A stretch of DNA of 32,117 nucleotides, from assembly GCA_017994695.1 (NCBI GenBank), contig JAGOKF010000041.1, positions 1 through 32,117 of the forward strand. The letters are read 5' to 3'. A program made the position numbers and the translations under genes. Origin of the DNA: Myxococcota bacterium (GTDB taxonomy: Bacteria > Myxococcota_A > UBA9042 > DTJE01). The notes beneath the pieces are model-generated. The model saw only the letters and a list, made by a program, of their open reading frames with translations. It made no database searches and had not been told where the DNA came from. Below are positions 3,497 through 10,107 of the stretch, one piece after another. Positions within the stretch are counted from its first letter, which is position 1. Each line of letters begins with the position of its first letter.

Positions 3497-3518
3497 CGGC
3501 GGTCGGAAGGAGCCGCCG
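3497..3518. terminator. Possible bidirectional terminator hairpin between convergent genes
   Basis: CGGCGG and CCGCCG pair across a 10-nt loop in the 72-nt gap between the stops of the radical SAM gene and the phosphate transporter. A 12-bp palindrome (CCGGGCGCCCGG, 3488-3499) adjoins it. There is no U tract on either side, so this rests on position and GC pairing only. Confidence 0.25.
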
Positions 3519-3551
3519 TGACCATCGGGGAAGCGGCCGGTCCGGATCGAA

Positions 3552-5171
3552 TCAGGCGGCCGCGTCCAGGGCATCGGCCGCGACGGCGGGAACCTCCGGC
3601 GCCTTCCGGCCCTGCAGGCGGTCGTGGGCCAGCACCCGGCCCCGGAAGATCCGGCCGTGGAGACGGTGGAAGTACAGCATCGAGGCCCCGAGCAGAACCA
3701 CGGCCAGGGGCACTCCGGCCCCGAGGCCCACGGCGGCCAGGCCGAAGGCCAGCAGGCCCGAGACCAGGAAGGCGGCCAGGCCGGTGACGATCCAGCCTCC
3801 CACGACGACCAGGATCCCGTGGACTCTCCGCTCGGCGCTGCCCCGATCCCAGACGCCGTCGCCCAGGGCGGCCCCCATCGCCACCATGAAGGTGATGTAG
3901 GTGGTGGACAGGGGCAGTTTCATGGATGTCCCGATGGAGATCAGCGTGCTGGCGACCGTCAGGTTCACCGAGGCCCGGAGCAGGTCGTATGGGGTCCCGT
4001 GGTCCGGATCCCCAGGCTTCGGTGCGAGGCGGTCCGCGGCCCGGTTCCGGATCCTCGACGGAAGCAGCGCGGTCACTCCCCGGCCGATCCAGGTTCCCAT
4101 GCGCACCACCGACCGGGCTGCCAGGCTCCCCCCGAAACGATGCTCGGTCTCCCCGCGGGCCGCCAGCCGGATTTCCGTGTCGGTGACGGCCCGGGCCTTC
4201 CGGCTGGCATGGAGGGCCAGCACCATCACCATTCCCGAGACCAGCAGCGCCCAGGCCGGGGTCGGCACCTGGCCCGACAGGCGCACGCCCTCGACGAACA
4301 TCGCCTGGCCCGCAGCCACCGTCGGCCCGATGAAGTTCACCAGGTCGTTGGCCGCGAAGGACAGGGCCAGGGTTCCCGTGCCGACCAGAATCAGCACCCG
4401 GAGCACGCGGGCGTGGTCCCGGCGCCGGATCCAGGCCCAGAGGGCGGCGACGGCGAACACCACGACGGACACTTCCCAGAGATGATCCCGCGCCCAGACC
4501 AGCGGGGCATCGCCCAGCAGCGGGACGTGCCCCACGCCCTTGCGCAGGATCGACCAGCAGACCACCGCCACGGACCAGCCGGCCCAGATCCAGCCATACC
4601 GGGCGAAGGCCCGCTCGGGGTCCTGGGTGAAGGCCAGTCGGACCAGCACCATCAGGACCAGTCCGCCCAGGAAGGCGATGCCCACCGATGCGAAGATGCC
4701 CATGTAGATGCCACCGAGGGGCTTCGCGTTCAGCACGGCCAGTGCTGCCGCCGGATCCCCCCCCGTGCGCCACAGCATGGTACCCACGGCCGCCCCGGCC
4801 AGGTTCGAGAGGATCGACACGGTGGTCGAGATGGGCAGGCCCAGGGAGTTGAACAGGTCCAGGACCAGCAGGTTCGCCACCATCGCGGCCAGGTACACGG
4901 TCAGGATCCCGGCGAGATCCACGCCGCCCTCCGGCGTGGAGAAGAGGTCCGGGTGGAAGACCCCCTTCCGGGCGACTTCCATCATGCCCGAGGAGAGCAG
5001 GGTCCCCGCGAGAGTCCCCAGGGCCGCCACCAGCAGGATCCGGCGCAGGGTTCCTGCGTGGGACCCGATGGCCGAGTTCAGAAAGTTCACCGCGTCGTTC
5101 GCGACCCCGACCCACAGTCCCAGGGCCGCCAGCACCACCAGGAGTCCGAAGGCCATCCCCAGAGGTTCCAA
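3552..5171 (-). CDS. PiT/Pho4-family inorganic phosphate transporter
   Basis: A 539-aa polytopic inner-membrane protein. It carries the duplicated family signature: GVANDAVNFLNSAIGS near the N-terminus and SFAANDLVNFIGP in the second half. Each repeat also has a serine/threonine-rich hairpin (LPISTTVSILSNL; LPLSTTYITFMVAMG). The family moves phosphate, usually as a neutral metal-phosphate complex or by cation symport. The TTG at 5169-5171 is chosen as start because GGAGG lies about 6 nt upstream and gives the short N-terminus usual here. The ATG at 5156 is an in-frame alternative with a poor ribosome site. A long hydrophilic loop (about residues 345-420) separates the repeats. No PhoU-like partner gene adjoins. 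The neighbour upstream on the same strand is a small membrane protein 146 nt away. Confidence 0.93.
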   Translation of the reverse strand: MEPLGMAFGLLVVLAALGLWVGVANDAVNFLNSAIGSHAGTLRRILLVAALGTLAGTLLSSGMMEVARKGVFHPDLFSTPEGGVDLAGILTVYLAAMVANLLVLDLFNSLGLPISTTVSILSNLAGAAVGTMLWRTGGDPAAALAVLNAKPLGGIYMGIFASVGIAFLGGLVLMVLVRLAFTQDPERAFARYGWIWAGWSVAVVCWSILRKGVGHVPLLGDAPLVWARDHLWEVSVVVFAVAALWAWIRRRDHARVLRVLILVGTGTLALSFAANDLVNFIGPTVAAGQAMFVEGVRLSGQVPTPAWALLVSGMVMVLALHASRKARAVTDTEIRLAARGETEHRFGGSLAARSVVRMGTWIGRGVTALLPSRIRNRAADRLAPKPGDPDHGTPYDLLRASVNLTVASTLISIGTSMKLPLSTTYITFMVAMGAALGDGVWDRGSAERRVHGILVVVGGWIVTGLAAFLVSGLLAFGLAAVGLGAGVPLAVVLLGASMLYFHRLHGRIFRGRVLAHDRLQGRKAPEVPAVAADALDAAA

Positions 5172-5253
5172 GAAGCCCCTCCAATCCGGACGCCCTGACG
5201 ATCCGCGATTCCCGTGACGTCCTGATGGACGCTTCGTGACAAATCGGAAACAG

Positions 5254-5275
5254 CCGCCGAGGGCCGCAACGGCGG
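5254..5275 (-). terminator. Weak terminator-like hairpin between the small membrane protein and PiT genes
   Basis: Read on the minus strand, CCGCCG and CGGCGG pair across a 10-nt loop and are followed by CTGTTTCC, a short T-rich stretch. It lies 43 nt past the stop of the upstream gene. If real, the PiT gene would need its own promoter, which I could not identify. Confidence 0.25.
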
Positions 5276-5317
5276 GGCGCCGGCTACCCAGGTCCATGGA
5301 TTCCGCATGATTGTCGG

Positions 5318-5866
5318 CTACATGGACTTCCTGGACCACCACCAGGGCGTGAACAGGACCCAGGATCCCGCCGCGATTCCCAGGGCCGGGCCCAGGGGGA
5401 TGCCCGACAGGGCCAGGACTCCGTGGACTGCCATCATCAGGCCGTGGGATCGGGTGAAGACCCCGACCCATCCGATCCGGTAGGACAGGGCCTCCCATCC
5501 GGTCTTGCACGCGAAGAAGGTCGCGAGGCCCGCGAAGTACCCCGGCGTCGCGTCTGCCGTGAGGGCCAGGGTCGCCCCGTACCAGCACAGCAGGATCGCG
5601 ATGTCCAGGACGAAGGCCGCTGCCCGGTAGGAACGGGTCCCGATGGTAGGAGCGTCCTCTGTCGCTTCGATACCCACGGAGTTCTTCGGCCGGATGACCG
5701 AGGACAGGTGGAAGGCGAGGTAGTCCTCCAGGACGACGGCCAGGGCGAAGATCTGTGCGGCGGTGGTGGCGTTCCAGACGAACCGGATGTTCTGCACCAC
5801 CACGCCGATGAGCACCGCGTAGAGCAAGTCCACGAACCCGACACGGACGGACGAAGGAGAAGCCAT
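5318..5866 (-). CDS. Small multi-pass membrane protein of unknown function
   Basis: A 182-aa hydrophobic protein with about five predicted membrane helices, near residues 8-27, 33-57, 79-102, 110-128 and 145-178. The tail is aromatic and basic (TPWWWSRKSM). I do not recognise the family. Charged residues sit in or beside the second helix (LEDYLAFHL) and the third (VLDIAILLCWYG), which suggests a structural or channel role rather than a simple anchor, but this is inference. The ATG is chosen because GAGG lies about 6 nt upstream. It is divergent from the lipoprotein gene at 6034 and upstream of the phosphate transporter on the same strand. A functional link to phosphate uptake is possible but unsupported. 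Confidence 0.78.
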   Translation of the reverse strand: MASPSSVRVGFVDLLYAVLIGVVVQNIRFVWNATTAAQIFALAVVLEDYLAFHLSSVIRPKNSVGIEATEDAPTIGTRSYRAAAFVLDIAILLCWYGATLALTADATPGYFAGLATFFACKTGWEALSYRIGWVGVFTRSHGLMMAVHGVLALSGIPLGPALGIAAGSWVLFTPWWWSRKSM

Positions 5867-7185: not shown

Positions 7186-10050
7186 CTAGCCGCCTTCCGG
7201 AATCACCGAGACGGGAGAGGACGACAGGCGGTAGGGGGCCTCGGTGCCTTCGGGAAGGACCGCGCGGCCAAAGACCGACAGGCGGAAGACCCCCCGGAAG
7301 ACCTGTTCCGGGGCCGGGATGCGGACGGCGGTGCGGACCCGGGCCACCCACCGGAAGGTTCGGCCCCCGGGCGCCGCCTCGGTCCAGGGCGGGTCGGGAT
7401 CGACCTGCAGCAGCACCCGGTAGTCCCGCTGGTCCACCACCCGGCCACCGGCTCTCAGGGGATGGAAGGTCCCGTCCGGTTCCAGCCGCTCCACCACGAC
7501 CTCGGGGCGATCCACGAAGGGATCGCCCCCATGCCACCGGAAGGTCCAGGGTTCCCCGGCGGCGGCAACGGCCGGCAGGTCCTCCACCACCGTTCTCGGA
7601 CCGACGGAGGCCGAGGGAACGTAGGGGCGCGACGTCGCAGGTTCCCAGGGCGGAATGACCTCGGGATGGAAGGCCAGCGGTGCCGCGGGATCCCCCAGGC
7701 GGGCGGCCACCGAGGCGGCGGCGTCCCGGAGGTACTCCCCCTGGCGGGGGCCCAGGAAGGCCATCCCGGGCTCGTAGCCCCCGCCGGCCCAGTCGTCGGG
7801 CAGCATCAGGTAGCCCACATAGTCCTGGGCGTATCCGAACAGGGCCCAGGTCTCGACCCCGGGAATCGCCCCCGCCACCCGTCGCAGCAGGTCCCGTCCC
7901 AGGGCGGTGTGAGGCTCCCCGGGAAGCGTCACGCCCGCCACGGGGCCCAGCCGGAAGGCCGCCAGGCGCACCGTGTCGGGAATCCAGCCCCAGTCGAGGT
8001 CCAGGCACGCATCCATCACCGGCGGAATGGCGCCGCAGACGGATCCCCCTCCGCCGCAGAGCATCGCCCCGGCCGGGTGGTCCCACTCCCCGGGGGCGTA
8101 GCCGATGGCCTCCCAGGTCATCGGGGCCACCGCTGCGCTGGTCCCGAGGTCCGGGTCGTCCTCCCAGGCGAAGGCCTCCCAGGCCCCCAGGACCGTCTCA
8201 GCGGCCGATCGCCCGATGGCCTCCAGGCGGTCCAGTTCCGGGAAGGGGGCTTCCGGCCACGGGGAATCCGGGAAGTCCCCCCGGGGATCGGCCGGCCCCA
8301 CGTCCCCCGTCCAGGACTGGAAGAAGAGCACCGGCGCTCCGCCCGGGATCGCCTCCTGGACCTTCTGTTCCACGGCCCGGGGCGCGTCCCCCCCCAGCAC
8401 CCCCTGCTGCCAGCCGAAGACCGTGCCGTGGAGGGCGTAGTTCACCAGCAGCCCGAGGGTGCCTCCTCCGTCCGCCCGGTCGAAGCGCCACAGGTGCATC
8501 GTGTCGTCCCGGAGCGGCGGGTTCTCGCACCTCCGGTCCACGTGCATGGCCGCGTTCGCCGCGACCGCGTGGCCGAACCGCACCGGCACGGCCTCGGCGG
8601 TCAGGGCCTCGACCACCGCGTCGGCGATGGCCCCGGTGACCCGGAGGAAGATCGCCTCGTCGTAGGTGTCCGAGAAGAGGGGGCCCAGGGGCGTGTCGAA
8701 GATCCTTCCCGGGGCGACGTGGGAGTGGTTCCCGGCGATCACCAGCGCGTCCCCGCAATCCAGGCCGGTCCTCTGGCGGACGAGGTCCGCGACGCGCCGG
8801 TGGACGGTGCGGAAGACGGCGATGAGGTCGGCCGTCACCAGCAGCAGGCGCCGGTCCCCCTTCACCAGGTGGATCACCTGGGCCCGGGGCGGCTGGACCA
8901 GGGTCGTGGTGGCCTGGAAGACGTCCTGGAAGGGGCTCCGGGGGGCACCCGGCGGGGGGGTCTGGCCGTAGCCGCCGGTGGAGATGCCCAGGGGCACCGG
9001 GAGGTCCCGGACCGCGTAGGAGGCCCGGAGGCGGTCGTCCGGCGGCACGAAGGGAGGGTCCGGCGGCGGGATGGCCTGGACTCCATAGGGCGGACTGGCA
9101 TTGATGAAGAGGTCCGGCTCGCAGCGGATCCGGGCGGGCAGGAAGGCGACCCCCTCCTTCACGCCGTAGAGCAGGTACTCCCCCGGAGGCACGTTCGGGA
9201 ACAGCACGCCTCCGTCCCGGGTGGTCTCCGACAACTGCGGGTCGGGGAAGATCGCGCCGTTGTCCATGGCCTCGAAATAGACCGGGGCGGAGGCCCCGGG
9301 AGGAGGGGGCCAGAGGTAGGCCCGGGCTCCCGGCTCCCCGCAGCGGTGGCAGGGTGGTTGCCCGAAGCGGTTCGCGGCGGTGAGGGTCGTCGCGACCTGG
9401 CAGGTCCCCGGCTCCGGTTCGACTCCGGCCATCGCGACGAAGAAGTCCCAGGTCCAGTGGTCCGGGGTCTGGAGGGTGACGTCCCGGAGGCCGTGGTTGC
9501 CGGTGTGGAGGACGGCCGTCCGGACGGGGTGGAGGGCCGGGTGATCCAGTTCCAGTTCCACCTCGGCACAGGCCGGGATCGAAGGCAGTTCGAACCGCCA
9601 ACCCGACCACCGGACCGACGGGCCGCCCACCACGCGGACGGTCCCCTCCGGCAGGTCCGGGTCGGGGCTGGCGGAGGCCTGGATCACCATCCCGGAGATC
9701 GACACGGTGGCCCGGGGGTCCTCGCAGGGCGGCGGCGGGGGGATTTCCGGGGGCGGGGGCTGTTCCGGGGAGGGGTCTCCCGTTCCCGGATCCGCCGGTT
9801 CCGGGTCGCCCGGCGCGGCATCCGCCGGCGCCTCTCCCGGGAGGTCCGTTGGCGCCGGATCGCCGGGGAGATCCCCCGGGAGGTCCGCGGCGTCCGGGGC
9901 ATCGTCGTCCCGGGCGGCCGCGTCCGGGCCGGTGTCCGGGAGTCCCCCATCCCCGGGACCGCCTGCTCCTCCGCAACCGGCCCAGAACGCCAGCCACAGG
10001 GCCAGGGCCCCGGCCGGGAGGGTTCCGGCGGGGCTGGTCCAGGATCGCAT
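7186..10050 (-). CDS. Large lipoprotein with a neutral-ceramidase-like domain; catalytic Ser replaced by Gly
   Basis: A 954-aa exported protein. The N-terminal signal ends in a lipobox-like WAGC near residue 25. A long Asp/Pro/Gly/Ala linker follows (to about 115), then a proline run, beta-rich domains that include a carboxypeptidase-regulatory-like segment, and a neutral/alkaline ceramidase-type domain (about 375-750). Family landmarks are visible: NHSHVAPG (His442, His444) and YALHGTVFG (His541), which match the zinc-site regions. The family nucleophile motif GDVSPN appears here as GDVGPA, with Gly585 where the serine belongs. Amidase activity on ceramide is therefore doubtful. It may use another nucleophile or act as a binding protein. 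The ATG at 10050 has GGAG 8 nt upstream. An in-frame ATG at 10080 with GAGG at 5 nt is equally possible and only lengthens the signal peptide. Confidence 0.82.
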   Translation of the reverse strand: MRSWTSPAGTLPAGALALWLAFWAGCGGAGGPGDGGLPDTGPDAAARDDDAPDAADLPGDLPGDPAPTDLPGEAPADAAPGDPEPADPGTGDPSPEQPPPPEIPPPPPCEDPRATVSISGMVIQASASPDPDLPEGTVRVVGGPSVRWSGWRFELPSIPACAEVELELDHPALHPVRTAVLHTGNHGLRDVTLQTPDHWTWDFFVAMAGVEPEPGTCQVATTLTAANRFGQPPCHRCGEPGARAYLWPPPPGASAPVYFEAMDNGAIFPDPQLSETTRDGGVLFPNVPPGEYLLYGVKEGVAFLPARIRCEPDLFINASPPYGVQAIPPPDPPFVPPDDRLRASYAVRDLPVPLGISTGGYGQTPPPGAPRSPFQDVFQATTTLVQPPRAQVIHLVKGDRRLLLVTADLIAVFRTVHRRVADLVRQRTGLDCGDALVIAGNHSHVAPGRIFDTPLGPLFSDTYDEAIFLRVTGAIADAVVEALTAEAVPVRFGHAVAANAAMHVDRRCENPPLRDDTMHLWRFDRADGGGTLGLLVNYALHGTVFGWQQGVLGGDAPRAVEQKVQEAIPGGAPVLFFQSWTGDVGPADPRGDFPDSPWPEAPFPELDRLEAIGRSAAETVLGAWEAFAWEDDPDLGTSAAVAPMTWEAIGYAPGEWDHPAGAMLCGGGGSVCGAIPPVMDACLDLDWGWIPDTVRLAAFRLGPVAGVTLPGEPHTALGRDLLRRVAGAIPGVETWALFGYAQDYVGYLMLPDDWAGGGYEPGMAFLGPRQGEYLRDAAASVAARLGDPAAPLAFHPEVIPPWEPATSRPYVPSASVGPRTVVEDLPAVAAAGEPWTFRWHGGDPFVDRPEVVVERLEPDGTFHPLRAGGRVVDQRDYRVLLQVDPDPPWTEAAPGGRTFRWVARVRTAVRIPAPEQVFRGVFRLSVFGRAVLPEGTEAPYRLSSSPVSVIPEGG

Positions 10051-10107
10051 CCTCGATGCTCCAGGGGTTCGCCGGCCCATCGGGTCCTCGAGGGGTTCGG
10101 TGTGCAC

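Follow-up and report, generated by a model that had tools for sequence, protein, structure and literature searches.

The gene at positions 7186 to 10080 on the minus strand of the window, the whole 32,117-nucleotide stretch of DNA analyzed here, most likely encodes an exported, membrane-anchored lipoprotein with the neutral ceramidase fold that acts as a zinc-dependent amidase, a reading to which we give a probability of roughly 0.75 from the sequence and the predicted structure. All seven equivalents of the zinc-binding and catalytic residues of neutral ceramidases are present in the protein by alignment, and the motif serine alone is missing. A working zinc enzyme is the most likely interpretation because these residues are all kept and because the same serine has been lost separately in many relatives.

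The window is the entire contig C82 of a 3.96-Mb draft genome in 158 contigs that is 97% complete. The extent of the gene was drawn from the open reading frame, the match to PF04734 and the GC3 pattern; read from the ATG at 10080 the product has 964 amino acids, and from the ATG at 10050 it has 954. All of its features lie on the minus strand. A lipobox (LAFWAGC), read by eye, ends in Cys36 of the 964-residue form (9973-9975), which points to a bacterial lipoprotein with a putative lipid anchor that would be exported. Downstream of the lipobox lies a low-complexity linker rich in Asp and Pro (9700-9972), evident in the sequence and of low pLDDT where modelled, and then one or more N-terminal modules (9061-9699) that resemble a beta-sandwich, as judged from weak similarity to the EMC7 type and a low-confidence model. 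The neutral ceramidase-like catalytic domain (7681-9021) was delimited with the Pfam profile, the AlphaFold model and Foldseek. The model and Foldseek also gave a C-terminal all-beta domain (7189-7653) in the position of the C-terminal Ig-like domain of ceramidases, although the protein had no match to the Pfam C-terminal ceramidase domain PF17048, which was found in the canonical ceramidase L038.

The initial annotation had proposed a neutral ceramidase-like domain, and the profile and the fold match both agree with it. PF04734 (Ceramidase_alk) matched with an E value of 2e-12 and 47 bits, above the superfamily cut-off of 32.1. In the AlphaFold model, built from 27 homologues, most of the catalytic and C-terminal domains have a pLDDT over 90, and Foldseek gave four PDB matches with E below 0.001, each a neutral ceramidase (2zws, 2zxc, and chains A and B of 4wgk; E 5e-39 to 5e-38, TM-score 0.71-0.75 normalised by target). 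A sequence profile of the subfamily finds 2zws at E 1e-37 and 4wgk at E 9e-29. The protein thus shares its fold with the Pseudomonas aeruginosa enzyme (2zws, 2zxc; best E 5e-39) and with human ASAH2 (4wgk; E 1.7e-38), but is only 17% and 15% identical to them, respectively. It differs further from the former in being a putative lipoprotein with an N-terminal linker and extra module, and its putative lipoprotein anchor contrasts with the signal-anchor and mucin-like region of ASAH2. The canonical ceramidases L037, L038 and L039, from the same bacterial family, have the same fold family and an exported, lipoprotein-like N-terminus; however, their match to PF04734 runs the full length (L038 scores 476 bits) and they retain the serine. 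Against the NCBIfam equivalog NF041649, which has a cut-off of 1200 bits, the window protein scored 30 bits and the canonical-type L038 only 504. The window protein belongs to a hitherto uncharacterized lipoprotein subfamily, defined here, with members in 178 of the 379 genomes searched in its phylum (E ≤ 1e-30).

Columns were assigned through L038. Its alignment spans the whole of 2zws and most of 4wgk and thereby locates every known residue; numbering along the chain of 2zws agrees with that published for His97, His99, Arg160, His204, Glu411, Tyr448 and Tyr460. In the Pseudomonas enzyme, His97, His204, Glu411 and Tyr448 are zinc ligands, and His99, Arg160 and Tyr460 are catalytic. The alignment equivalents of the ligands, which would bind the metal in the window protein, are His452 (8725-8727; His97 in P. 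aeruginosa, His194 in human), His551 in LHGT (8428-8430; His204, His303), Glu722 in PGEPHT (7915-7917; Glu411, Glu540) and Tyr757 in VGYLML (7810-7812; Tyr448, Tyr579). Those of the catalytic residues are His454 (8719-8721; His99, His196), Arg516 in DRRCEN (8533-8535; Arg160, Arg257) and Tyr769 in GGYEPG (7774-7776; Tyr460, Tyr591). The NHSH and LHGT motifs previously noted are indeed found, at 8730-8719 and 8433-8422.

The plus strand at 8290-8307 reads ggccggccccacgtcccc, and its reverse complement, GGG GAC GTG GGG CCG GCC, encodes G-D-V-G-P-A (residues 592-597 of the longer form and 582-587 of the shorter), where canonical ceramidases are expected to read GDVSPN with serine. Gly595 (8296-8298) stands in place of Ser354 of the human enzyme. 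The sequence at 8307-8290 confirms the glycine reported by the initial annotation, whose numbering, Gly585, holds when translation starts at 10050, since the hexapeptide then occupies residues 582-587. Its description of GDVSPN as conserved needs to be relaxed: residues 247-252 of the 2zws chain read G-N-L-S-P-N, and the hexapeptide is therefore variable even among characterized enzymes. The flanks align without a gap (FQSWTGDV-G-PADP against FNTTAGDV-S-PNVH), which rules out a serine shifted into the site, and no serine elsewhere occupies it.

The residue at this site varies widely among relatives. We compared 150 non-redundant homologues from the phylum of the window, one of which (L006) is from the Chloroflexota. 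The columns of His97, His99 and His204 were invariant (150/150 each), as was that of Tyr448 in the 148 sequences read; Arg160 was present in 147 of 150, the Glu411 column held 141 Glu and 7 Asp, and the Tyr460 column 143 Tyr and 2 Phe. The serine column held Ser in 98 homologues, Ala in 25, Phe in 8, Thr in 7, Gly in 6, Arg in 2, and Gln, Glu, Asn and Tyr in one each. On a 143-row tree built without the serine column, residue changes numbered 0 to 2 per metal or catalytic site and 31 for the serine column; scored as hydroxyl or no hydroxyl, the latter changed 25 times, at least 22 of them forced by supported branches. A careful, well-supported 54-row tree of the half of the subfamily that holds the window gave 13 such changes, at least 12 of them forced, which rules out a single origin of serine loss. 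The window protein falls in a serine-less clade of five rows (the window and its sister, plus three Ala-bearing genomes; support 100/99), and the sister to this clade, L012, bears the serine (GDVSP), is 52% identical to the window protein over the domain and has the same catalytic residues, which makes it a natural comparator for the loss. Change counts alone do not tell gain from loss, but loss is favored, the serine being present in canonical ceramidases and in most members. The simplest reading of these sequences is a single loss in the common ancestor of the five-row clade and many independent losses elsewhere.

The eight Phe rows are short PF04734 paralogues that form a separate clade where they are in the tree, and most have Asp for the zinc-ligand Glu411. 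Paralogues with this Phe/Asp pair are L001, L044, L045, L048, L050, L054 and L059; L001 lies in the window genome itself (contig C118). Outside the phylum, a relative from the Thermomicrobiaceae (Chloroflexota; L006:3942-4460) also has Gly at the serine position (GDIGP).

Amide cleavage by a zinc-bound water is established for bacterial and human neutral ceramidases. Mutation of Ser354 reportedly destroys the activity of the human enzyme, and a member without the serine could therefore be weak. In ACER3, an unrelated zinc ceramidase, a Ser-to-Ala change leaves only about 0.17% activity (PMC9436119). The premise that the serine is the nucleophile belongs to an older view, which came from amidase-motif work cited in PMC5874051. 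According to a review of the human enzyme (PMC6952831), His196, Arg257, Tyr579 and Tyr591 are critical and Ser354 stabilises Arg257. In the window protein, zinc would be held by His452, His551, Glu722 and Tyr757, and the N-acyl (amide) bond would be attacked by the zinc-bound water with the assistance of His454, Arg516 and Tyr769. Gly595 would not lie at the nucleophile site and, on the structural view, the exchange of Ser for Gly would take away a support for the arginine rather than the nucleophile. The arginine lies in D-R-R-x-E-N in the subfamily rather than in the canonical N-R-S, with a second arginine where the Pseudomonas enzyme has R-S, so that its surroundings were already rebuilt; we infer that this rebuilding frees the serine to vary. 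The different chemistry suggested by the initial annotation is unlikely, since the shared zinc chemistry does not need the serine as nucleophile.

The candidate substrate would be exogenous (foreign) ceramide or another N-acyl lipid. Self-made ceramide is probably not the substrate, because a serine palmitoyltransferase model found nothing at E ≤ 0.001 in the window genome, which is 97% complete. The same model, which also detects related oxoamine synthases, matched in all 14 control genomes and, at E ≤ 1e-60, in 335 of the 379 genomes of the phylum. The window genome is unusual in its phylum in having no alpha-oxoamine synthase homologue that the model detects, not even a BioF-like one; the sister and several members of the family likewise have no strong match. 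A link between loss of the serine and absence of serine palmitoyltransferase is not evident, as the serine-bearing sister genome (G008) also has no strong match and several genomes with serine-less members do have one. A search of the window genome for a canonical ceramidase as backup found none; the only match (E 1e-7) was to another protein. The genome also carries a paralogue (L004, contig C96) whose weak ceramidase-like region apparently passes into one that resembles a GH5 cellulase (Pfam E 0.003).

The substrate may differ from ceramide, because the similarity overall is distant (17% identity, 47 bits to PF04734, and a score far under the NCBIfam ceramidase cut-off). It is a serious possibility, to which we give not quite even odds, that the subfamily is a zinc hydrolase acting on some other N-acyl or ester lipid, and that the serine varies since it helps only in the hydrolysis of ceramide. 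This interpretation overlaps with our preferred one, which leaves the substrate open. It fits with the canonical-type ceramidases (L034 and L037-L041) keeping Ser or Thr while the subfamily varies, with three genomes (G005, G011 and G012) that each carry a canonical ceramidase together with a serine-less subfamily member, and with the window genome having no serine palmitoyltransferase homologue; however, most subfamily members still have the serine, and an organism that makes no ceramide of its own may still meet foreign ceramide. A more specific version, which we regard as tentative, holds that this large subfamily performs zinc amidase chemistry on a non-ceramide substrate and can dispense with the serine by having its arginine re-anchored through D-R-R-x-E-N. 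If this is true, the natural Ser/Ala/Gly series would show the real role of the serine.

Another proposal, that of the initial annotation, was that the protein is a non-enzymatic lipid binder: a pseudoenzyme that keeps the ceramidase fold and binds a sphingolipid or other lipid at the surface without cleaving it. The serine exchanged for glycine is one reported to be essential in human neutral ceramidase, the predicted architecture is that of a surface lipoprotein, and the extra N-terminal beta-sandwich-like module could be a binding domain. We nevertheless consider a pseudoenzyme unlikely. Pseudoenzymes usually drift at their metal ligands, but throughout the subfamily, serine-less members included, the zinc ligands and the catalytic His, Arg and Tyr hardly vary, and members with and without the serine are intermixed on the tree and show no further loss. 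The chemistry of the family being zinc-based, and the zinc ligands, Arg and Tyr being kept while the serine is repeatedly lost, the non-enzymatic reading is unsupported; such retention in serine-less proteins is what working enzymes would show, whereas relics that bind lipid would not be expected to.

The subfamily amounts to a natural, phylum-wide experiment: Ala, Gly, Gln, Glu or Arg has many times taken the place of the serine, and the zinc site has stayed intact. The repeated replacement is independent evidence against the serine as nucleophile and offers natural pairs with which to test it. The structural literature had, however, already given this residue a lesser role, which limits the interest of the finding. 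For annotators it is a caution that one motif residue is not enough to call such proteins dead.

Finally, the glycine is present in an independent genome. The orthologue in the nearest named genome, a Deltaproteobacteria metagenome-assembled genome (L005, JAKPOP010000024.1), is 83% identical over 599 amino acids and keeps it. The reading frame is uninterrupted, differences between the two fall mostly in third codon positions (176, against 64 in first and 59 in second positions), and dN/dS is about 0.24 (NG86) or 0.05 (YN00). Although the window comes from a draft of 158 contigs, a sequencing or assembly error is excluded by the same glycine in this independent genome and a decaying pseudogene is refuted by the low dN/dS, codon-position pattern and intact frame, and both can be dismissed; the glycine is real and inherited, and purifying selection acts on the gene. 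The DNA of the sister contig is collinear with the window, except that it is missing the segment at 3504-5324, which overlaps a minus-strand PHO4 phosphate-transporter gene. Within 9070-10062 the window carries about 690 bp beyond the sister sequence, which correspond to the N-terminal beta-sandwich-like module between the linker and the catalytic domain, a module absent from the sister-species orthologue.
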